A stretch of DNA of 41,307 nt from positions 1-41,307 of the forward strand of contig JAJPJF010000522.1 of assembly GCA_021324415.1 (NCBI GenBank), given 5' to 3'. Positions 1,026 to 21,451 of this stretch are shown piece after piece. The notes beneath the pieces are model-generated. The model was not told where the DNA came from, did no database searches, and saw only the letters and a program-made list of their open reading frames with translations. Within the stretch, counting starts at the first letter, position 1. The number at the start of each line of letters is the position of its first letter. The DNA comes from Nostocales cyanobacterium Centralia_MAG_434. GTDB taxonomy: Bacteria; Cyanobacteriota; Cyanobacteriia; Cyanobacteriales; Nostocaceae. A program made the translations under genes and the position numbers.

Positions 1026-2186
1026 TTAAGCCACTAAAGAAGGATTATAGCTATATAGCCACTGCTCAAACTCGCGATCGCCTACTAGCGCCTTCTCCAT
1101 CATGCCCCGTAAGTATATTTCACTATCATCTTTGTAGGCGCGCTTTGCCTGTACAGCATTGCGGATTTGGATGATTTGTGTACGAGGTTTCCGACTTTGT
1201 TCGTAACTAGCAAGTGCTGCTGTCAGACTAGGGGTATGGCAAAGGCATTGAGAAAGTTCCCACGCATCTTCAAACGCTGTATTTGCTCCTTGTCCTAATA
1301 GTGGCACCATCGGATGAGCAGCGTCTCCCAAAAGCGTTACCCTGCCTCGACTCCATTCCGATAACGGTGGTCTGTCACAGATTGGCCGTTCGACAATGTC
1401 CTCAGCATTGGTGGCTTCGATGATTGCTTGCACTGGTTCTGCCCAATCTGTAAACTTCTCTTGGACGCAAGACTTAACATCATCCGCACTCTGGTTCATA
1501 GGTTTGTCTGGCGACAAAGCCGCTGCACTCCACATTATGTATCCACCACCCAAATCAAAGAACCCAAAAATTTTGCCATCGGGTGCTGTCATTGACATAA
1601 CTTCGTGAGGATGCAACATTTCGTGGCTGTACTGGAGAACAGCTCGCCAAGATATCCGTCCAGCATAGTCAGGCTTACCGTCACCAATCATCGTTTGTCT
1701 AACTGCCGAGTTTAACCCATCAGCCCCAATCAACAGTTCTGCCTCTACTTTCTTGCTCCCATCAAAGTAGACTTCAACACCTTTGTCATTTTGCTCAAAA
1801 CCGATGCATCTATAATTGAGATGGATATTTTCAGTTGGTAATGCAGCAGCGAGGATCTCTTGCAAACATGACCATCGAATCTGCAACATTGGCTGACCAT
1901 ATTTCTCCATCAAGTTTACCGCTTGCTGTCCAATGATTTCACCAGTACTTTTTTTTAAGGTCAGCATTCGCGTCTGGCTACCTGCCTGTTTTAGTGACTC
2001 GACTATACCAGGAGCAATTGCTTCAAGACTATTTAAGCCGTTCGGTACAATACTCAGACCAGCGCCAACTGCACGTAAAAAACGAGCTTTTTCGTAAACT
2101 TGGGCGTCGATGCCTTTTCTATGAAGTGCGATCGCCACTGCTAAACCGCCTAATCCAGCACCAATAATAGCTACTTTTTTAATCAT
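1026..2186 (-). CDS. FAD-dependent monooxygenase (PHBH / salicylate hydroxylase-like)
   Basis: This 386-residue flavoprotein has the three sequence marks of class A flavin monooxygenases: the dinucleotide-binding GAGLGG at residues 9-14, the GADGLNS (DG) motif at 154-160, and the LLGDAAHPM (GD) motif near 285-293 that binds the FAD ribose. Such enzymes use NAD(P)H and O2 to hydroxylate or epoxidise aromatic or isoprenoid substrates in the cytoplasm. Length is normal for the family and there is no clear membrane segment. The start follows no good Shine-Dalgarno sequence, but the glycine-rich motif begins at the usual distance from this ATG. It is divergent from the VOC-family gene downstream on the other strand. 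The substrate cannot be told from the sequence; zeaxanthin-epoxidase-like and salicylate-hydroxylase-like roles are both possible. Confidence 0.85.
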   Translation of the reverse strand: MIKKVAIIGAGLGGLAVAIALHRKGIDAQVYEKARFLRAVGAGLSIVPNGLNSLEAIAPGIVESLKQAGSQTRMLTLKKSTGEIIGQQAVNLMEKYGQPMLQIRWSCLQEILAAALPTENIHLNYRCIGFEQNDKGVEVYFDGSKKVEAELLIGADGLNSAVRQTMIGDGKPDYAGRISWRAVLQYSHEMLHPHEVMSMTAPDGKIFGFFDLGGGYIMWSAAALSPDKPMNQSADDVKSCVQEKFTDWAEPVQAIIEATNAEDIVERPICDRPPLSEWSRGRVTLLGDAAHPMVPLLGQGANTAFEDAWELSQCLCHTPSLTAALASYEQSRKPRTQIIQIRNAVQAKRAYKDDSEIYLRGMMEKALVGDREFEQWLYSYNPSLVA

Positions 2187-7273: not shown

Positions 7274-8155
7274 TTAGTGCTCGCTCTCCTTGTCTACCAC
7301 TCCTACACGTAGAGCAACACGTTTATACTGGCTAGCATCATAGGGAATACCTGCGTGCATAACTTGCGAGTTGTCCCAAACAACAAGATCGCCCGGATGC
7401 CAAACATGAGCATAAACTGGTGTGCGTTCTAGGACTGTTTCAAACAGTTCCTCCCAAAATTGTTTTGCTAAATCCAATTGCTCTTCCATTCCAACAAGAA
7501 TTGATGTGTCTGAGCCCAGATATAATCCTCTCTTTCCAGAAATCTTGTGGGTTGAAACAATAGGATGCATTTTCATTGGCACATCAGACCCCGGCTTGTA
7601 GCTTCTTGGAGGCAAATGATACATAAACATTTGCTCCAACTGTTGCTGATGCTCAGGATCGAGATTGTTGTAAGCTTCGATCATGTCCAGGAATTCTGTT
7701 GTGTGGGGCTGACCATCGACCCCTTCTGCTGGTATTTCTATTCCATAAAGCATGACCACATACAAAGCATTCATATCTAGACCTTCTGTTGTAGGAAGGA
7801 GGTCCTTGTCATGATGCCATTGCCAAGCAATCTTACCCACTATCTCTTGAGTATTTTCCTGAGGATTTCCTAGAATAGCAACACCGGAACTTTGTAAGTT
7901 TGGATCGATGTTTGGGTCTAGGGGTTTAGATGGATAATTCAAGGTGAACTCACCAAAAGTCTGATTGGCAAATTTCTTCAACTCTGATGCTGTGAGACGT
8001 TGATTTCTGACGACAATCACACCATGTTGCCAAAGAGCTGTTTTGAATTCACTAACTTGTTGATTAGTAAGTTGCATGAGATTGCAACCTTGCAGTACTT
8101 CCATGCCAAGTCTAGAATGTTGCTGTACTGTCTTATATGGCATTTTTAGAATCAT
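7274..8155 (-). CDS. TauD/TfdA-family Fe(II)/2-oxoglutarate-dependent dioxygenase
   Basis: This 293-residue enzyme has the TauD-family facial triad. WHHDKD at 113-118 gives the His114-x-Asp116 pair and QVMHAG gives the distal His267. YKRVALRV follows, with Arg279/Arg283 positioned to hold 2-oxoglutarate. Family members couple decarboxylation of 2-oxoglutarate to oxidation of a small organic substrate in the cytoplasm. Met5 (8143) is an equally plausible start; neither has a good ribosome binding site. It is the last gene of a same-strand series after the KMO-like flavoprotein and the propeller protein, about 230 bp after the latter. A joint pathway is an inference from this grouping. The actual substrate (taurine, an aryloxyacid, or an intermediate in a natural product) is unknown. 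Confidence 0.87.
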   Translation of the reverse strand: MILKMPYKTVQQHSRLGMEVLQGCNLMQLTNQQVSEFKTALWQHGVIVVRNQRLTASELKKFANQTFGEFTLNYPSKPLDPNIDPNLQSSGVAILGNPQENTQEIVGKIAWQWHHDKDLLPTTEGLDMNALYVVMLYGIEIPAEGVDGQPHTTEFLDMIEAYNNLDPEHQQQLEQMFMYHLPPRSYKPGSDVPMKMHPIVSTHKISGKRGLYLGSDTSILVGMEEQLDLAKQFWEELFETVLERTPVYAHVWHPGDLVVWDNSQVMHAGIPYDASQYKRVALRVGVVDKESEH

Positions 8156-8312
8156 AATTTATACAAATTACCTCAAAGGGAAGTTTGTCGTATTTTGCAG
8201 AGAAACTTATCTTCTTGAACCTTTTAAACCACAATTATTAGAGCAACTTATCAGATGGAGCCTATCCTAATCATGTCTGAGGGTATTAGCTAAATCCATC
8301 TGTCATTTGGTG

Positions 8313-8360
8313 GATGCGATCGCCGGATTTCTCACAAATTGGAAATACAGGGATCGCATC
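8313..8360. repeat. Imperfect stem-loop containing a HIP1 site
   Basis: GATGCGATC (8313-8321) and GATCGCATC (8352-8360) are perfect inverted 9-mers. Between them ATTTC and GAAAT also pair. The structure lies in the 233-bp gap between the propeller gene and the TauD-like gene and overlaps a GCGATCGC octamer. It has no T-run, so it is more likely an mRNA processing or stabilising hairpin, or a small palindromic repeat, than a simple terminator. Confidence 0.5.
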
Positions 8361-8388
8361 TCCACCCACATTCAGTACAACCTGCCGT

Positions 8389-9456
8389 CTAATCTTCACC
8401 CCAGCGCTGCCATTGACGAAAATTTGTTCCAGCACTCACAGCTAGACCAATTTGATGCTGTGAAGAGAGTTCATCGTAGCCACCTTCGTTTGCGCCAATG
8501 TAGTACATACGGAAACTGCCATCATCCATAGGTACAACACAAGGGGTGCCTACTGCCCGTGCATCCCACCGTCCAGAACTCTTGGGAGCATGGGAAAAGA
8601 CGGAACCTCCAGCTTGCTCCCCTTTTTCTTTTTGCCAATGAATCCCGTCGTCAGAAACAGCTAGACCAATGGAGTGATAACCACTGGTGTTAACACCTTC
8701 GTAGAACATGACGTACTGTCCATTTATCTTTAGAACATTACGAGTTCCAATGCCTCTCTCATCAAAACTTCCAGATTCACCTGGTTGTAAAATTTGACCG
8801 ACCTTTTCCCAATGCAAACCGTCATTAGAAATAGCTAAACCAACTAAGAATCCTTGGTCAGGATTGAGGGTGTGGTAGAACAATTTCCATGTTCCATCAT
8901 CATCAGCTATAACTTGTGGCCATGCGCAAAAAAGCGCATCAAACTCCCCTGCTTTGCCAATATCGAGAAAAGCTCCCTGATAAGGACCTTCCAAGCGTAC
9001 CCAATTTATGCCATCACGAGAGATGGCACAGCCAGGACGCATATTTAACCCTTTAGCTTTAAAGCTTCCCACATCCACAACCGTATGGTTACCACCGAAA
9101 TACCACATCCAATAAAGACCATCGAGAAAGTATACATTGCTCACACCAACGTGGGCTGAGTCAAACCGATTAGGATCTGGGTGAGGCTCAAAAACAGCAC
9201 CTTGAGTCAATGATCCCCGGACGCGTTGCCAATGAATTCCATCCGCAGAAATTGCTAAACCACAGCGACCAGTGGGCAAATTGATTTGCCGATCAAACGA
9301 AGCATCCCGACCGTAATACCACATCTTCCAAGTTCCATCAGGACAGCACAAAACCTGTGGAGAAGAAACTCGTTCAGAATCCCACCAACCTTCCGATCCA
9401 GGTGTAAGAACTAGTCCAGGTTGCTGGATTGGGGTTTTTGCGTCACTCATAATCAT
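8389..9456 (-). CDS. Five-bladed beta-propeller protein, glycosidase-like (GH32/43/130 type fold)
   Basis: This 355-residue protein carries five spaced copies of a GLAIS-x-DG-hydrophobic-HW motif at about residues 66-78, 142-154, 207-219, 263-275 and 336-351, one per blade of a five-bladed propeller. Between them are repeated W/F-D-x-x segments (WWDSERVSSP, RFDSAHVGVS, EFDALFCAWP, SFDERGIGTR, RWDARAVGTP) that carry the acidic residues found in active sites of GH43/GH130-like enzymes. There is no signal peptide, so it appears cytoplasmic. Such proteins hydrolyse or phosphorolyse glycosides, but some lie in biosynthetic clusters with other roles. Met3 (9450) is an alternative start. It lies between the KMO-like and TauD-like genes on the same strand. 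Specific activity cannot be assigned. Confidence 0.8.
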   Translation of the reverse strand: MIMSDAKTPIQQPGLVLTPGSEGWWDSERVSSPQVLCCPDGTWKMWYYGRDASFDRQINLPTGRCGLAISADGIHWQRVRGSLTQGAVFEPHPDPNRFDSAHVGVSNVYFLDGLYWMWYFGGNHTVVDVGSFKAKGLNMRPGCAISRDGINWVRLEGPYQGAFLDIGKAGEFDALFCAWPQVIADDDGTWKLFYHTLNPDQGFLVGLAISNDGLHWEKVGQILQPGESGSFDERGIGTRNVLKINGQYVMFYEGVNTSGYHSIGLAVSDDGIHWQKEKGEQAGGSVFSHAPKSSGRWDARAVGTPCVVPMDDGSFRMYYIGANEGGYDELSSQHQIGLAVSAGTNFRQWQRWGED

Positions 9457-9472
9457 AGATTTTTACTTCACA

Positions 9473-9486
9473 ATTGCTATAGCAAT
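9473..9486. promoter_or_regulatory. 14-bp perfect palindrome upstream of the propeller gene
   Basis: ATTGCTATAGCAAT is a perfect palindrome located 17-30 bases before the start codon of the minus-strand propeller gene. It could be an operator in the promoter or leader, or a short dispersed palindrome. The half sequence ATTGCTAT recurs at about 9573. Confidence 0.35.
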
Positions 9487-9526
9487 CTTAAATTATTTGT
9501 AAAAAGCGAGAATCCCAATTTCTCTA

Positions 9527-9541
9527 AGAAACCGGGATTCT
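9527..9541. repeat. AGAAACC-type palindromic repeat, second copy
   Basis: AGAAACCGGGATTCT is a diverged copy of the 15-bp palindrome at 3127-3141. It overlaps an outer inverted pair, AGAATCCC / GGGATTCT, which forms a hairpin in the 120-bp gap between the KMO-like gene and the propeller gene. Confidence 0.5.
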
Positions 9542-9576
9542 GAAACTTTTAATTTTTCAAATTCCTACACAGATTG

Positions 9577-10878
9577 CTATGCACTTGCTAATAATTTCGC
9601 ATTTGATTTTTTGACTTTGGATATCCAACCTTTGTATGTGTTTAAAATTTCTGAATAGGGAACTGTCGTCTCAAAAATAAGATCAATCAGTGAAGGTGGG
9701 AAATGCTTGGGAGATAGTTTATGTAGAATTTTAGCAATACTTTCTCTTAAGAAAAACTCAATAAATAAACCAGTAGACGAGGGAAAAGCATAATCCCCCA
9801 GTTCAACTAGCGCAAGACCATCCTGGTTCCGTCGGATAGTAAACTGTTTAAGAGCCTCTGCTAGATTGTCAGAATATTGATCCAATATATTGTCAAATAC
9901 AACGACATCTTCAAGTGCAGCATTGCAACCTTGACCAATAGAAGAAGATACTGCATGAGCAGCATCTCCTATGATTAGGACACTGTCATCTTGGTGATAA
10001 CGGTTACAACGGACTGTTAAAATTCTCGATATCGGTTTATTGAGGAAAGCTTCGGCGTCTTTCTCCGTCATCAATCGACCAATTTCTGGAAAATTATCCT
10101 GAAAAAAAGTAAGCACTTCTTCTACAGTGGAAAGACTAGCTATTTGATTTTTCTCTGGTGGAAAGTTGATTGCACCACTCATGGTTCCATCAACCTGATG
10201 TAACGCTACCATGATTGTTCCGTCATTGAGTCTCCAAGTATGGATATTATCTAGTTTTAAGTGTGTGCCTAATTTATCACTACTATCCAAGTAAATCGAT
10301 TTGTAGTCAATGGGGTAGTATTTCTGTTCACACTCAAAATCCTCTGTAGTGAGAAAATTCTCTCTTACCGCAGAACGTGATCCATCCGCACCAACTAATA
10401 AATCGTAATTAATTGTGAATTCTTCTGCTGTTTCTGTATTTTGCAAATTTATGTTTTTTGTCGTCCAATCAACAGAGGTACATTGACAGTTAAAGTGAAT
10501 ATTGAGACGACTGTTATTGTATTTTTCAGTCAATTTTTGCAGTAGGACAATCGTCAATCTTGTTCGATCAAGTGTGGTGAGAGGGTTCTTTCTTGGCGTC
10601 AACCGTGCCTTGCCATTTTTTTGATGAAAGAGCGTTCCTGTCATTTGCACACTAATGGCTTTGACTGCTTCCTCTAAACCCTCAATTTTTCCCAACGCAC
10701 TCATTCCTCTTACGTTAAGAGAGATAGGAAAAGTTCTAGATGTTGAAAATGACACAATTCTCGGGTCGCTACGGCGTTCATAAATATCGATTTGGTATTG
10801 GTCTCCACGACGCAGCAGGTAGTAAGCAAGCAAAAGTCCGCAGGGTCCAGCACCTACAATAACTACTTTTTTGACCAT
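9577..10878 (-). CDS. Kynurenine 3-monooxygenase-like FAD-dependent monooxygenase
   Basis: This 433-residue class A flavin monooxygenase resembles kynurenine 3-monooxygenase (KMO) over its whole length as I recall that family. GAGPCG at 9-14 binds FAD; PISLNVRGMSAL is at 51-62; VGADGSRSAVRENF around 162-175 is the DG motif; IIGDAAHAVSSSIGQGCNAALED around 302-324 is the GD motif. A hydrophobic helical C-terminus (LFIEFFLRESIAKILHKL) matches the membrane-associated tail of KMO. In the substrate loop the MTGT at 79-82 aligns with the MRAR of eukaryotic KMO, so the carboxylate-binding arginine seems absent. The substrate may therefore not be kynurenine. Tryptophan-pathway genes are not adjacent; instead a propeller gene and a dioxygenase gene follow on the same strand. 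NAD synthesis genes lie 14 kb away, which is not evidence for a link. Confidence 0.82.
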   Translation of the reverse strand: MVKKVVIVGAGPCGLLLAYYLLRRGDQYQIDIYERRSDPRIVSFSTSRTFPISLNVRGMSALGKIEGLEEAVKAISVQMTGTLFHQKNGKARLTPRKNPLTTLDRTRLTIVLLQKLTEKYNNSRLNIHFNCQCTSVDWTTKNINLQNTETAEEFTINYDLLVGADGSRSAVRENFLTTEDFECEQKYYPIDYKSIYLDSSDKLGTHLKLDNIHTWRLNDGTIMVALHQVDGTMSGAINFPPEKNQIASLSTVEEVLTFFQDNFPEIGRLMTEKDAEAFLNKPISRILTVRCNRYHQDDSVLIIGDAAHAVSSSIGQGCNAALEDVVVFDNILDQYSDNLAEALKQFTIRRNQDGLALVELGDYAFPSSTGLFIEFFLRESIAKILHKLSPKHFPPSLIDLIFETTVPYSEILNTYKGWISKVKKSNAKLLASA

Positions 10879-10959
10879 AATTCTAGGACTTACGCATTGA
10901 TTGGAAAATTATAATAATTCATGCGTACTATCAATTTTTAGCTCAACTAACACAATTTT

Positions 10960-11628
10960 TCATGAATCTTGAGAGGGATGTAGTAAAGACAGAAAAGAGT
11001 TGGCAAAGATAGCGGCTTGAGTGCGATCGCGCAAATTTAGCCGACTCAGAATATTTGTAACATGATTTTTTACCGTTCTTTCTGTGATGTAGAGAGACTC
11101 TGCAATCTCTCTATTACTAGCACCAACAGCAATGAGACGTAAAACTTCTTTTTCTCTCGGTGTTAGTTCAGTAAACCCAGGCAAAGGAGTTGGAATCTGT
11201 GGTATTGTAGTATTTGGCACAAGAGGTAAGACTTTCTCAAACAATCCTGGTCCTAGCTGAGTATACCCTTGATAAACTGAGCGAATCGCATTTGCAAGTG
11301 GCTCTATAGGGGTATCTTTCAATAAATAGCCTCTCGCTCCAAATTGCATTGCCTGAGAGACATATTCATCATCGTCAAATGTCGTCAGCACCAATACTTT
11401 CACATCCGGGAACCGTTGACAAATAGCCTGAGTTGCCGCTACACCATCCATGACAGGCATACGGATATCCATCAATACGACATCTGGCTTCAGAGTTTCT
11501 ACTTGAATAATTGCTTTTTCACCATTTTCTGCTTCACCAACAATCTGAAAATCTGGTTTTGACTCCAATAAGCTCTTTATTCCCTGACGAATAATAATCT
11601 GATCGTCTACCAATAACAGATGAATCAT
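10960..11628 (-). CDS. NarL/FixJ-family response regulator
   Basis: This 222-residue regulator starts at the ATG giving [11 protein letters not shown] longer open frame exists upstream, but it would overlap the kinase gene and adds nothing that resembles a receiver domain. The receiver domain has Asp8-Asp9, phospho-acceptor Asp54 in VVLMDIRMP, and Lys104 in YLLKDTP. The C-terminal LuxR-type helix-turn-helix is [11 protein letters not shown]...[19 protein letters not shown]. It begins only 4 bases after the stop of the histidine kinase gene, with an AGG-containing ribosome binding site inside the kinase end, so the two are translationally linked partners. It precedes the KMO-like gene by about 80 bp on the same strand. 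It may control that cluster, but this is inferred from position. Confidence 0.93.
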
Positions 11629-11632
11629 CACC

Positions 11633-12913
11633 TTAACCTCGACAAGGTAATACTGCTGTAATTCGGCAACCAGCTTTTGGTTTACTGACAATATGAAATT
11701 GACCTCCCAGTGCCAGCGTTCTTTCCCGCATTCCCTGAAGTCCAAATCCTGTTGTATTTTGGTTTGGGTTGAAGCCTTGACCATTGTCTTCAATGCTTAA
11801 ATACAGGGTATGAGTGGTTGCTTGTAATTCAATTTTGACTTCATCTGCCATACTATGTTTGGAAATATTTGTCAGAGCCTCCTGGACAATTCTGTAAATT
11901 GTCGTCTTAATATCAACAGATAATGGTTGGTGTAGGTTGACAGTGCAATCTGGAACAATGTTAGTCCGACGCTGAAAATCTTCTAATAGCAGCGTGAGTC
12001 CTGACGTTAACGATTTTCCCTGCATTGGGTCAGAACGCAACGTTGATACAGATTGGCGCACTTCTCGCAAGGCATGACTACCCAGTTGTTTTGCTTCCTC
12101 TAAGAAGATTCGGGCTTTGTCCAGATTCGATTCAACAAATAGCAATGCATTCTCTAGCTGAATACTTTGAGCCGTAAGCAAGTGTCCTAGAGCATCGTGG
12201 ATTTCACGGGCGATTCTGTTACGTTCTTGTAGTGTGGCTTGGTCTTCTATACGTAGCGTGTATTGACGGAGTTGCTGGTGAGCGATCGCCAACTTTTCAC
12301 GACTCTGTCGTTCTGCTAGTAGAGCATTGATTAATAACAATACGAATGCCAACACAAAGCCAAACAGCAACGTCGCATGTAGTAATAAGTGCCACAAAAT
12401 CCCTCTTAACTGCTCTTCCACAATCACTTCTGACATAGGTATTTGTGGCGGTGGGCTTGGTATTGGTATTATTTGCCGAATACATTTAGGGTGTGCTGGA
12501 AACTCTGATGGCAGCGTGGTAGCAAAGGATACAAATGCCAAACTAGCCACGAGTAAGCGTCCAGTTAAATTAAAAATCAAGCAGCTGCGAATGACTAAAA
12601 TCAATAGCAGTGGTGGTGGAAAGCCAACACCTCTACTGATTGTTAGATGTGCCAACAGAATCAGTCCAAATCCCAGTCCTGTATAGAGCACTTTTGAGAA
12701 CAGGTTGTCTTTAGGTAAGCGTAAGCTCATCATGCCAAAGCAAGCAACGATTAAAACGAACAGTATTCTTTGTTGGGGAATAACTGTATGCACAATCAAC
12801 GGGTGTGGATCTTGCATTAACAACTCAGTCACAAAAGTGATTCCCAGGAGAATCCACTCCAGGTAAAGCAGTACACGAAAAGGGTGAGGTTGGAGGTGAA
12901 TCTGACAGGTCAC
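11633..12913 (-). CDS. NarL-type membrane histidine kinase (HisKA_3)
   Basis: This 426-residue sensor begins with GTG. The first ~200 residues are strongly hydrophobic, with about five or six membrane segments and a short Pro-rich loop near 140-160. There is no large extracellular sensor domain, so the signal is likely sensed in or near the membrane. A coiled linker leads to the HisKA_3 dimerisation helix with the phospho-acceptor His239 in [16 protein letters not shown]. The ATPase domain shows the N-box around Asn349 ([14 protein letters not shown]) and the G-box IEDNGQGF at 374-381. It is co-transcribed with the response regulator directly downstream. The signal is unknown. Confidence 0.92.
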
Positions 12914-14740: not shown

Positions 14741-14911
14741 ATGCATAAACAAAATAATCATGAATTGATGATTAATATAGCCAATCTTCTTTCCCTTTTT
14801 GGCTTAATCTTGGGTGGCTTCATCATCTATCAATTTTTTGTATCTACACCGGGGATAGATACTACAGAGCATTCCTTGGGTCACCAAAAGGTATTCACAA
14901 TTGAGAGTTGA
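14741..14911 (+). CDS. Small membrane protein of unknown function (56 aa)
   Basis: An ATG at 14741 opens a 56-codon frame ending in TGA (14909-14911). AGGG lies 5 bases before the ATG as a reasonable ribosome binding site. The product starts MHKQNNHELMINIANLL and has one hydrophobic segment, roughly residues 11-34 (NIANLLSLFGLILGGFIIYQ), followed by a short polar tail. This fits a single-pass membrane peptide. I recognise no family. The frame ends where the purine-rich repeat begins, so its last few codons may have been affected by that repeat. It stands alone between the SDR terminator and the PEBP lipoprotein gene. Confidence 0.5.
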   Translation: MHKQNNHELMINIANLLSLFGLILGGFIIYQFFVSTPGIDTTEHSLGHQKVFTIES

Positions 14912-15053
14912 TAGGAGACAAGGGAGATAAAAAGGACAAGGGGGACAAGGAGGACAAAGGGGACAAGGGAGATAAAAAGGACAAGGGGGATAAGGAGGAC
15001 AAGGAGGACAAGGGAGATAAAAAGGACAAGGGGGATAAGGAGGACAAGGGGAG
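14911..15053 (+). repeat. Purine-rich GACAAGG/GATAAAAAGG tandem repeat
   Basis: About 140 bp consist of imperfect units such as GACAAGGGGGA, GACAAGGAG and GATAAAAAGGACAAGGG. The unit length is a multiple of three, so all frames stay open; one would encode a Lys/Gly/Asp/Glu repeat. Related GGGGGACAAGGAGGACAAGG tracts occur at 26269-26289 and, inverted, at about 7210-7240. It lies immediately upstream of the PEBP lipoprotein gene. Confidence 0.85.
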
Positions 15054-15078
15054 GATTTGTATCAAGAATTTTGTGAAT

Positions 15079-15681
15079 ATGAATAGACGAGGGTTTTTGG
15101 GTCAAAGCTTCGCCACACTGGGATTTTTGGGATTATCTGTGATTGGTTGTCATACTTCTGGTAGTGGTGATACTGTGGCAAGTTCCGCTAGTAGTGATCA
15201 AGCAAGCCAGAAGGTGAAAACGATGAAACTAGAAAGCAGTGCCTTTGAAGCTAACGGCTTAATTCCTACCAAATACACATGTGACGGTGATGGTATCTCC
15301 CCGCCATTAAGTTGGGATGAGCCTCCATCCACAACCCAGAGTCTTGCACTGATTGTAGATGACCCCGATGCACCTGGAGGGATCTTTGTTCATTGGGTTC
15401 TTTATGAGATTCCTGCTACAGTCCGCCAACTACCAGAAAAAATTGCATCCGTCGCCACTCTACCAAATGGTGGGGTGCAGGGCAAAAATGATTTTGGCAA
15501 GCTTGGTTATGGTGGTCCTTGTCCACCTGGTGGTACCCATCGATACTTTTTCAAAGTCTACGCTTTAGATAAAAAATTAGGTTTAGAACCAGGTGCGACT
15601 AAAGCTCAAGTCGTGACTGCTATGGATGGTCACATTTTGGCAACGGCAGAATTGATTGGACGCTACCAACGTCGCCGTTAA
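15079..15681 (+). CDS. YbhB/YbcL-type PEBP (Raf kinase inhibitor-like) lipoprotein, probable Tat export
   Basis: From this ATG the product is 200 residues. It begins MNRRGFLGQSFATLGFL and reaches the lipobox V-I-G-C24, a twin-arginine-type lipoprotein signal. An earlier in-frame start (14908) would only add a Lys/Asp/Gly peptide from the DNA repeat and hide the signal, so I reject it. The mature part is the phosphatidylethanolamine-binding fold of the bacterial YbhB/YbcL group: FEANGLIPTKYTCDGDGISPPLSW near the start, then LALIVDDPDAPGGIFVHWVLYEIP and the GYGGPCPPGGTHRYFFKVYALD ligand-binding loop. Members bind anionic ligands; the physiological role in bacteria is unclear. No gene downstream on the same strand suggests a partner. 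Confidence 0.88.
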   Translation: MNRRGFLGQSFATLGFLGLSVIGCHTSGSGDTVASSASSDQASQKVKTMKLESSAFEANGLIPTKYTCDGDGISPPLSWDEPPSTTQSLALIVDDPDAPGGIFVHWVLYEIPATVRQLPEKIASVATLPNGGVQGKNDFGKLGYGGPCPPGGTHRYFFKVYALDKKLGLEPGATKAQVVTAMDGHILATAELIGRYQRRR

Positions 15682-15744: not shown

Positions 15745-17160
15745 CTAAGCTATGGAAGCTGCCAACTGTTCTTCAGAAACCCACGCAGCATGGAAGCCAT
15801 AGGGTACTCGTTGAGGAATGAGCACCCGTGCTACAGGTTTGCTAGTTACGTCCCGAGCATTCACGACTACTAATTCAGAACACTCCTCGTTAGTATCGTA
15901 AACAAAGGTAATCAGCCAACCCTCATCTTCACCCCCTTCTACAGTGGTACGAGGAACAAATACAGCCTCACCGCCGTAACGTCCCTGACCAAATTCATGA
16001 GTTTCTGACTTGCCAGTGTGATGGTCATACTTGATTAAACCATCAAACAAGGGCATGGTACTCTTAGCCATTCTGGCAAGGTAGCCATATTGGGTTTGGC
16101 GTCCCCAGAAGTTTTCATTTATACGAGGAAATTCCGCAGCCACATCGTCCAGCTTTGTTTCACGTACAGTTCCTGTGCTTAGGTTGAACCGCCATTGATG
16201 CAAGCGAGGGATATCCCCTTCGGGATCACGTTGCGTCTCGTTAAAGACAAGCATATTTGTAGAACTCATACGGCAGGCGAGAAGTACGACTTCGTCTCCT
16301 TCCTCGTAGGCGTTGAGGGTATGGTAAACATAGCAAGCAGGACTTTCAAACCAGCGAATACTGCTGTTGTCTCCATGACGTGGAACAATACCAAAACGAC
16401 TGGGGCGATCGCGCTCAAAGGAAATCGCAGGTTCTCCCCGTTGCATACGCTCGCCGTTGAATGTCATGGGCAAATCCATGAAAATTGTATAATTCTCGGT
16501 GATGGCGAAATCATGCATAATCACTGCCATTGGTATGTCAATTGGTACAGTTTGCAATAGCTCGCCTGTTGGAGAAACGACACTGTACTGTAAGTATGGT
16601 GGTGAGAAAGAGTAGCCAAAGAACATCATTTCTCCAGTCACCAAGTCTACTTTAGGGTGAGCCGTGAAGGGAGACACTAGCTGATGATTGAAGGTATATT
16701 CACCAACAGTCTCTAGGCTGGGAACTTTAATGGCATGAGGTGCACCGCCTTCCCATAGTGCTAATAGTTGACCTGCATGCCAAACTAGGGCAGTATTGGC
16801 AGTGTTTTTACCAGGACCGTAGGGGTTGTCTAGCTGCGGCGGTTCTAAAAATCCTGTCCAAATAGCCTTACCAGCTTGGTTCTCTATTTTCCATCCTCTT
16901 GTTCGCACGTAACGGTTGCAATAGGTGGCAATACCACTATTAATTCTTACTCCATGTAACATCCCATCACCATCAAACCAATGATACTGGCCAATAGGTG
17001 CCCATTGCGGGTTGGAACCATTGCGCACGAACATTCCTGATAGATCGAGAGGTAGTTCACCTATGACTTGTAAAGCATCAGTAGTGATTTCTTGGTGTAC
17101 TGGTGCAAAGTTGCCGTCAAGAAAAGGATTAACTGCTACTGTTGTTTCCATTGTTTCCAT
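15745..17160 (-). CDS. Carotenoid oxygenase (RPE65/CCD family, apocarotenoid-cleaving)
   Basis: This 471-residue protein is a seven-bladed-propeller carotenoid cleavage dioxygenase. The four iron-binding histidines are visible: His168 (SPFTAHPK), His216 (MHDFAITENY), His280 (YVYHTLNAYEE) and His457 (YGFHAAW). WFDGDGMLHGV near 61-71 is the conserved entry motif. Members use Fe(II) and O2 to split carotenoids or apocarotenoids to aldehydes such as retinal; the soluble cyanobacterial enzymes of this length are mostly apocarotenoid 15,15'-oxygenases. Met4 (17151) is an alternative start. The gene is divergent from the AstE/AspA-type hydrolase gene, with a 98-bp shared promoter region. Substrate preference cannot be set from sequence alone. 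Confidence 0.92.
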   Translation of the reverse strand: METMETTVAVNPFLDGNFAPVHQEITTDALQVIGELPLDLSGMFVRNGSNPQWAPIGQYHWFDGDGMLHGVRINSGIATYCNRYVRTRGWKIENQAGKAIWTGFLEPPQLDNPYGPGKNTANTALVWHAGQLLALWEGGAPHAIKVPSLETVGEYTFNHQLVSPFTAHPKVDLVTGEMMFFGYSFSPPYLQYSVVSPTGELLQTVPIDIPMAVIMHDFAITENYTIFMDLPMTFNGERMQRGEPAISFERDRPSRFGIVPRHGDNSSIRWFESPACYVYHTLNAYEEGDEVVLLACRMSSTNMLVFNETQRDPEGDIPRLHQWRFNLSTGTVRETKLDDVAAEFPRINENFWGRQTQYGYLARMAKSTMPLFDGLIKYDHHTGKSETHEFGQGRYGGEAVFVPRTTVEGGEDEGWLITFVYDTNEECSELVVVNARDVTSKPVARVLIPQRVPYGFHAAWVSEEQLAASIA

Positions 17161-20390: not shown

Positions 20391-20864
20391 ATGATTAAAT
20401 CTTGGATGGTGATTGGGGGTATAGCTATCTTGGTCGCATTAGGTGCGAACTTCATTACTCCCAGCGATCGCAAATGGTTCAAGCGGTTACAAAGACCTAG
20501 ATGGTTAACTTTTGAGGCACTTATTCCTCTCATCTGGACTGTCATTTTTGTTTGCGGTGCTTGGTCAGCTTATATTGTTTGGGAAAAGAATCCAGGAACT
20601 ACCAACACTTGGCTTCTCATGGGATTGTACCTGCTTTTAGAAATAGTCACGATTGCCTATACTCCTGTCATGTTCCGGCTTCGTAGTCTGAAAGTTGGTA
20701 CGATTATCGGTGGCATTGGTTTTATTATCAGTCTTATATTAACTCTTACAGTTTTACCTATCTCTGGTTGGGCAGCACTACTGCTTTTACCTTACTTGTT
20801 GTGGAGTCCAATTGGAACTTACACAACTTGGGCAATGATCCGCCTTAATCCTCAAGATGCTTAA
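20391..20864 (+). CDS. TspO/MBR family protein, copy 1
   Basis: This 157-residue integral membrane protein has five predicted helices and the aromatic-rich features of the translocator/tryptophan-rich sensory protein family, including the PRWLTFEALIPLIWTVIF segment. TspO proteins bind porphyrins, bilins and related tetrapyrroles and modulate stress responses in bacteria. Compared with classical TspO, the sequence is from a divergent cyanobacterial subgroup and has an extended C-terminal end (SPIGTYTTWAMIRLNPQDA). It starts at an ATG preceded by a purine-rich site that lies in a hairpin. A second, related gene follows 113 bp later on the same strand, so this is a tandem duplication. Confidence 0.85.
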   Translation: MIKSWMVIGGIAILVALGANFITPSDRKWFKRLQRPRWLTFEALIPLIWTVIFVCGAWSAYIVWEKNPGTTNTWLLMGLYLLLEIVTIAYTPVMFRLRSLKVGTIIGGIGFIISLILTLTVLPISGWAALLLLPYLLWSPIGTYTTWAMIRLNPQDA

Positions 20865-20977
20865 TTTCTACTCCCTTCCCTCTAATATTCAAACCTCTGG
20901 CTGATTTAATCCACACGAGAGAATTGCCAAAATTGCTGTGTAATCCTTGACAAAATACACAAATAATGGTAAGCAAT

Positions 20978-21451
20978 ATGATTCAATCATGGATGGTGAT
21001 TGGGGCTATAGCTTTTTTAGTCGCTGCTGGTAGTTTCTTCATTACACCAGGCGATGTCAAGTGGTTTGCACGGTTAAGCCGTCCTCAATGGCTGGTTTTT
21101 GAGCCTCTGATCCCCTTAATCTGGACTGTTATTTTTATCTGCGGTGCTATTTCCGCTAACATTGTGTGGCAAAAGAATCCAGGCAGCCTAATAACTTGGG
21201 TACTAATGGGTCTCTACCTACTGCTGGAAATTATCACTGTTGCCTATATTCCACTGATGCTAAGATTCCGCAGTTTGAAAACTGGGGAAATTATTGGGTC
21301 GGTTGGTGTGATTATAGGTGTATTACTCACGGTTTTTGTCTTGCCAATTTCAAGGCTGGCGGCGCTGCTACTCATCCCGTATCTGGTTTGGAGCCCGGTT
21401 GGAACATATACAACTGAAGAGTTGATACAACTGAATCCTCAAGATGTCTAG
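20978..21451 (+). CDS. TspO/MBR family protein, copy 2
   Basis: This is a tandem paralogue of the gene directly upstream, with the same length and helix pattern: MIQSWMVIGAIAFLVAAGS against MIKSWMVIGGIAILVALGA, and both end in LNPQD plus one residue. I chose the ATG at 20978 because it lines up with the start of copy 1; an ATG at 20966 would add four residues (MVSN). A TTGACA hexamer near 20948 may belong to its own promoter, and it lacks the ribosome-binding-site hairpin of copy 1. The two copies may therefore be expressed under different conditions. The ligand is unknown; tetrapyrroles are the family norm. Confidence 0.84.
   Translation: MIQSWMVIGAIAFLVAAGSFFITPGDVKWFARLSRPQWLVFEPLIPLIWTVIFICGAISANIVWQKNPGSLITWVLMGLYLLLEIITVAYIPLMLRFRSLKTGEIIGSVGVIIGVLLTVFVLPISRLAALLLIPYLVWSPVGTYTTEELIQLNPQDV

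Follow-up and report, generated by a model that had tools for sequence, protein, structure and literature searches.

Which genes in a row of neighbours belong together? The question is raised by contig JAJPJF010000522.1 of Nostocales cyanobacterium Centralia_MAG_434 (Nostocaceae), whose 41,307 nucleotides are called the window here. At 7274–12913, five minus-strand open reading frames (ORFs) follow one another: a TauD-like Fe/2-oxoglutarate dioxygenase, a five-bladed propeller protein that we call PROP, a KMO-like FAD monooxygenase, a response regulator and a histidine kinase. A first-pass annotation, made from the sequence alone, had read this row as an oxidative cluster that tailors or breaks down a small molecule under an adjacent signal system. 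Its five coordinates match the ORF list of the window and its family calls prove right (TauD, PF02668; FAD_binding_3/KMO; Response_reg with GerE; HisKA_3 with HATPase_c; five blades). The membership of the set is what changes. On balance we think it probable that the window holds its own version of an oxidative small-molecule module of Nostocaceae, centred on PROP and so far undescribed, to which a second flavoprotein (FMO2) would belong and the two-component pair probably would not.

PROP and the oxygenases that recur beside it

PROP (8389–9456, minus strand, 355 aa) is the hub of the conserved neighbourhood. It is found in nine of 148 genomes of the order, two of these as fragments, and, patchily, across Nostocaceae, where 29 of 217 genomes have it and the gene is full length in 28; both counts include the window's own genome, which measures 8.4 Mb and is the sole representative of its genus among the genomes compared. 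G111 and G096 hold PROP fragments only and were left out of the comparison of loci, L160 and L162 were dropped as duplicates of L010 and L009, whose contigs have identical lengths (150502 and 123347), and 34 full-length genes were compared, 28 from the family and six from outside it. Inspection of these loci reveals KMO, FMO2, TauD or a Rieske oxygenase of the PaO type within 4 kb of 20 of the 28 family genes, the window's among them. As a control, all ORFs lying up to 4 kb from the 34 genes, 155 clusters and singletons in total, were compared by genus. KMO and FMO2 are the only ones present in six of the 18 genera, PaO is present in three and TauD in two, and no other cluster exceeds three; the remaining two-genus clusters, bar one, are flanks common to g121 and g95 or belong to the ccdA/ccs1 site of g91 and g104. 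For KMO and FMO2 alike, each of the six genera includes one or more genomes in which the gene shares the strand of PROP.

The commonest order is KMO-FMO2-PROP, which stands on one strand in G178, G170, G250, G251, G252, G253 and G356. KMO and PROP are found without FMO2 between them in the window and two Brasilonema genomes, FMO2 and PROP are paired in G241–G244 and G335, PROP and TauD are paired in the window and G312–G315, and PROP has a Rieske PaO gene close by in both Brasilonema genomes, G099 and G335 (split over two ORFs in the last). Spacing is operon-like: 19 bp separate KMO from FMO2 in g121, and the FMO2 and PROP ORFs of G356 overlap by 4 bp, with a start that agrees with homology. 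The genes flanking the module vary by genus (proA, dxs, ccdA/ccs1, restriction-modification), and the linkage is therefore kept at different chromosomal sites. Some neighbours were left out of the partner counts: a PROP neighbour in G005 that is FAD-binding but of a different type, an aldehyde dehydrogenase (k14) adjoining FMO2 in g118 that turned out to be the housekeeping gene proA, and an adenosylhomocysteinase beside PROP in G050 with a homologue beside KMO in G091 (cluster c70), likewise housekeeping.

FMO2, a second class A FAD monooxygenase, was missed by the first-pass annotation, whose coordinates end short of it (1026–2186, minus strand). It falls on the HpxO/3-hydroxybenzoate 6-hydroxylase side: its top-scoring model is HpxO, 3-hydroxybenzoate 6-monooxygenase is among those that follow, and the scores are far below curated cut-offs. 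Homologues of at least 70% identity occur in 16 other family genomes, and all 16 have PROP, versus 28 of 216 overall (hypergeometric 5e-17 over genomes and 4e-7 over genera, for a cut-off set after the table had been seen and for related genomes that are not independent). The two genes lie within 4 kb of each other in 12 of the 16 and on different contigs in G312, G194, G326 and G329. Apart from those of G335 and G163, homologues at 57–68% identity come mostly from genomes that lack PROP, and plasmid records held no homologue at or above 60%. Judged by these distributions, FMO2 is the most PROP-specific partner. A VOC/glyoxalase-superfamily gene (2571–2963, PF00903), a possible accessory, adjoins FMO2 in the window, on the plus strand and thus opposite to it; in G312 a VOC gene 70% identical to it adjoins FMO2 on the same strand. 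A Na/H antiporter lies 3 to 4 kb off at both sites. The FMO2 site is common to the two genomes, so the window has two successive sites, the first with FMO2 and the second with KMO-PROP-TauD. Aldehyde dehydrogenases 70–72% identical occur near FMO2 in G335, where the gene adjoins PROP, and in G157 and G248, where it stands two genes from FMO2 and divergent. At loci L206 and L207, from two genomes without PROP, an FMO2-like gene (66–68%) lies amid NmrA, nitrilase and aldehyde dehydrogenase genes.

The KMO-like gene (9577–10878, minus strand, 433 aa) is 83% identical to its relative in Brasilonema angustatum and 74% identical to each of those in Brasilonema sp. CT11, HT-58-2, Scytonema NIES-4073 and Tolypothrix campylonemoides VB511288. 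A tree of 38 homologues was built, leaving out L160, L162, L109, L096 and matches with fewer than 330 aligned residues, which drops a truncated copy in G170. The ten PROP-linked copies need two label changes, compared with a mean of 9.1 after shuffling and none as low in 500 shuffles, a count that near-copies in the tree favour. Nine linked copies form one fully supported group, while the tenth groups with three unlinked copies. An old KMO-PROP association with one loss is the simplest reading of the tree.

TauD (7274–8155, minus strand, 293 aa) appears to be a part-time member. Homologues at E 1e-60 or better are found in 52 of the 217 family genomes; 15 of the 28 other PROP genomes have one (the PROP of G111, one of the 28, being a fragment), versus 51 of 216 (p 2e-4, kinship ignored). 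In G312–G315 (g105), a genus other than that of the window, TauD follows PROP by about 150–190 bp on the same strand. The trio of KMO, PROP and TauD had been proposed as a set to look for in related genomes; among the 34 PROP loci its exact row is found at the window only, which tells against the trio as a whole, but its two halves, KMO-PROP and PROP-TauD, each recur. TauD also has a second oxygenase neighbour. In G250–G253 (g121) TauD is preceded on its own strand by a PaO gene that stops about 0.1 kb short of it (L202 5413–7721, L203 6546–8821), likely as a two-gene operon; a 4-bp overlap given by mechanically called starts was dropped because homology puts the TauD start about 0.1 kb past PaO. 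PaO of this type also stands before a TauD fragment in G170 and near FMO2 in G335 and G177. A 719-aa TauD ORF in G314 (L151 9501–11660) was rejected as a functional fusion, since its frame runs into an IS605 OrfB-type transposase; the gene there carries an apparent IS605-type insertion at its 3' end.

The two-component pair, a dispersed repeat and other features of the window

The LuxR-type response regulator (10960–11628, minus strand; Response_reg and GerE) and the HisKA_3 histidine kinase (11633–12913, minus strand, 426 aa; HisKA_3 and HATPase_c) had been taken as the signal system of the set. The longest regulator ORF starts at 11793; an alternative ATG at 11626–11628 lies 4 bp past the kinase stop, so the proposed 4-bp spacing holds. 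Of the other intergenic distances, the 120 bp between KMO and PROP and the 233 bp between PROP and TauD are exact, and the regulator-KMO gap, given as 80 bp, is 81 bp. The functional grouping is not borne out. Kinase homologues at E 1e-60 are present in 200 of 217 family genomes, and in the 11 nearest loci fetched (58–70% identical) the regulator is found with the kinase every time (11 of 11) and KMO never, with 34 to 841 bp of DNA after the regulator, too short at one locus. Eight of these 11 genomes are without PROP, and G329, G326 and G163 carry it elsewhere. Conversely, among the six nearest ORFs to either side of PROP at the 33 other loci, no kinase or regulator homologue exceeds 38% identity; a regulator of 36% lies near PROP in G245. 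We rejected the pair as a dedicated regulator: it is conserved elsewhere without KMO and has no homologue above that identity near the other PROP genes, and by this evidence it is probably a neighbour outside the module, which may nonetheless exert some putative control over the window genes through its position. Other sensor-type genes near PROP are a GAF/HisKA kinase in G163, a GAF protein in g118 and an ETR1-type protein in G335.

Hairpins in the gaps had been taken as a sign that the row may be more than one transcript. The 120-bp KMO-PROP gap does contain one, with a 15-bp stem followed by a T-run; its RNA fold has an energy of -34.5 kcal/mol, versus a shuffle mean of -19.5 (z -4.7). For the 233-bp PROP-TauD gap the same terminator-like scan listed no site. 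The hairpin sits within a dispersed inverted-repeat element of about 106 bp (9475–9580, minus strand), which has about 40 further matches in the genome (40 of 159 candidates were scored), a few of them opposite-strand matches of one palindromic copy. The core of the repeat resembles a terminator, and the stop codon of the KMO-like gene comes from its ATAGCAATCT end.

Three more features of the window may be recorded. A PEBP-family ORF (14908–15681) has a called start that reads through a GDKGDKEDKGDK-like repeat, and its true start is probably further in; a carotenoid-oxygenase (RPE65) family protein is encoded close to the module at 15745–17160; and two similar adjoining ORFs of one cluster (20391–21451), the first of the TspO/MBR family, are likely a tandem TspO pair.

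Weighing a proposed PROP-centred module against other explanations

The proposed tailoring or breakdown of a small molecule by oxygenases remains our best guess at function. The sequences show the genes, their repeated linkage at separate sites and the co-occurrence of FMO2 with PROP; from these we infer one common pathway and, with it, an order of steps, a substrate class and a direction, whether making or breaking. KMO-like and FMO2, both class A flavin hydroxylases, would add oxygen to a small, probably aromatic, cytoplasmic molecule, and the target of PROP would be a sugar-like or cyclic ether moiety, either in that compound or in its product. The TauD-like dioxygenase or the Rieske PaO oxygenase may then supply an exchangeable extra step, which in one lineage might be followed by an aldehyde dehydrogenase step.

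A number of observations weigh against such a module. Eight of the 28 family PROP genes have no KMO, FMO2, TauD or PaO within 4 kb (G163, G224, G245, G277, G285, G326, G328 and G329), nor do five of the six full-length genes from outside the family. KMO matches occur in 22 of the 148 genomes of the order sample, of which only the window's own and G118 have full-length PROP, in G118 on a separate contig, and KMO-like genes without PROP are common at other sites, such as after priA. The TauD copies closest to that of the window (84–86%) belong to G268 and G269, both without PROP, which argues against a strict PROP-TauD tie. Within the window, a terminator-like hairpin stands between KMO and PROP, and FMO2 lies 6.2 kb from PROP with opposite-strand transporter genes in between. 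The row is also imperfect in some relatives: in G254 the KMO-FMO2 pair adjoins PROP but points the opposite way and its FMO2 is partial, and G170 has a truncated KMO together with one stop in each of its FMO2 and PROP matches, so that this row may be decaying. The after-the-fact cut-off and the kinship of genomes in the FMO2 comparison count on the same side.

Could the recurrence of PROP with oxygenases simply mark a DNA block co-inherited among close relatives? Flanks too are shared within g121 and g95, and many genomes of a genus are near-copies of one another; however, both the flanks and the combinations of partners differ across g91/g104, g112, g118, g121/g95, g128 and g105, and the control described above found no other gene cluster in more than three genera. 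We consider co-inheritance quite improbable as the explanation. A narrower doubt accepts KMO-FMO2-PROP as real and holds that TauD and the two-component pair adjoin it by chance, which would make the five-gene cluster of the window accidental. For the pair, chance adjacency is our own view, given the 11 nearest homologues without KMO (one of them too short to tell). For TauD, a gene present in 52 of 217 genomes yet beside PROP only in the window and the four g105 genomes among 34 loci could be a bystander; against this stand its same-strand position about 150–190 bp from PROP in a different genus, its pairing with a PaO oxygenase, a pairing that FMO2 also shows, and its enrichment in PROP genomes noted above, again with kinship ignored. 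Taken as a whole, the accidental cluster seems to us rather unlikely.

The remaining alternative concerns function rather than membership, and we hold it to be possible, though the less expected outcome. An aromatic catabolic route would have FMO2 and the KMO-like enzyme hydroxylate, a VOC-type or Rieske enzyme open or demethylate, and an aldehyde dehydrogenase oxidise the product, after PROP had removed a sugar. The best-scoring FMO2 models, HpxO and then 3-hydroxybenzoate 6-monooxygenase, are consistent with this route, as are the VOC genes adjoining FMO2 in the window and G312, the aldehyde dehydrogenases of G335, G157 and G248, and the nitrilase and NmrA genes that adjoin FMO2 in G248 and have homologues in G157. 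Those model scores, in contrast, fall far below curated cut-offs, no known type of ring-cleavage enzyme was recognised, and G157 and G248 are without PROP. The PROP-centred module stays our preferred reading, and its reconstruction is instructive in one further respect: reading the neighbourhood from a single genome both overcalled members (the kinase pair) and missed one (FMO2).

Comparison with known enzymes and systems

The KMO-like protein (FAD_binding_3, E 3e-24) carries the GxGxxG and GD motifs of the class A FAD monooxygenase fold. Its best PDB matches are kynurenine 3-monooxygenases, chain 6lkd matching at full length (E 1e-48, residues 3–421); against the VioC model it reaches 198 bits over 3–413, where the cut-off is 760. 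According to passages of PMC6376250, Arg84, Tyr98, Asn369 and Tyr404 of PfKMO bind the kynurenine carboxylate. In the alignment these correspond to T82, a gap, D362 and L397, and because none of the four is kept we set aside an identity as kynurenine monooxygenase: the protein is unlikely to be a KMO in the strict sense. TauD resembles the TauD/TfdA Fe(II)/2-oxoglutarate dioxygenases in its PF02668 domain (E 1e-32, residues 22–283) and in its iron site of the form HxD...H (H114-x-D116 and H267, invariant in five aligned TauDs); it falls below the cut-offs of all three models matched, by a wide margin for taurine dioxygenase (54 vs 313 bits) and ScoE (65 vs 400).

Among whole systems, the tolyporphin cluster was considered, since its hosts HT-58-2 and Brasilonema carry KMO homologues. 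The tol genes named in the passages of PMC8401325 consulted (P450s, the FAD-binding tolJ, sugar genes and hem genes) include no KMO, Rieske PaO or propeller by name, and the link was dropped on those gene names. Within the open-licence literature, no description of this gene set was recognised.

PROP is an orphan relative of GH32/43/117/130. Like that superfamily it has five repeats with an Asp at each [WF]D site: the [WF]D[SAE] pattern is read at 25, 98, 172, 231 and 297, the corresponding Asp 26, 99, 173, 232 and 298 are invariant in the 34 aligned members, and four S-x-D-G-x-x-W motifs with a degenerate fifth make five blades readable from the sequence repeats. Alignments to the superfamily, which includes 3,6-anhydro-alpha-L-galactosidases and beta-1,2-mannobiose phosphorylases, are partial only. 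The window protein scores 25.2 bits against Pfam GH32N (gathering cut-off 22.1) but over residues 180–280 only, and 19.7 bits against GH130, below the cut-off of 26; at E up to 0.01, GH32N is matched by 16 of 33 members, GH130 by 26 and GH43 by two, and no Pfam match spans the full length of the window protein or the 33 members. Searched as a profile, the 33 members match chains of GH117, of GH130 and of glycosidases without an assignment, with 51 to 209 profile positions aligned; the best match (E 6e-11) is to GH117 chains over blades 4–5. Where GH117 has its H-D-P active-site stretch, the window protein has G-T-P. Plasmid records gave three partial matches near 30% identity, to 'family 43' proteins, and a structure model from three sequences had a mean predicted local distance difference test score (pLDDT) of 39, too poor for fold comparison.

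From these sequence features we read PROP as a member of the five-bladed propeller superfamily without an assigned reaction. Only as a speculative extension, and one we would not expect to hold, PROP might found a new intracellular enzyme family acting on a small-molecule scaffold, perhaps non-hydrolytically, and cyanobacteria would combine it with various oxygenases (of two flavin types, Fe/2-oxoglutarate and Rieske), giving lineage-specific products from one core reaction. What sets the patchy module apart is that its partner enzymes change by lineage while the propeller stays. Once the reaction of PROP is found, a new activity would be added to a superfamily whose known members are mostly carbohydrate enzymes, and small molecules of a class not yet recognised in cyanobacteria could come to light.

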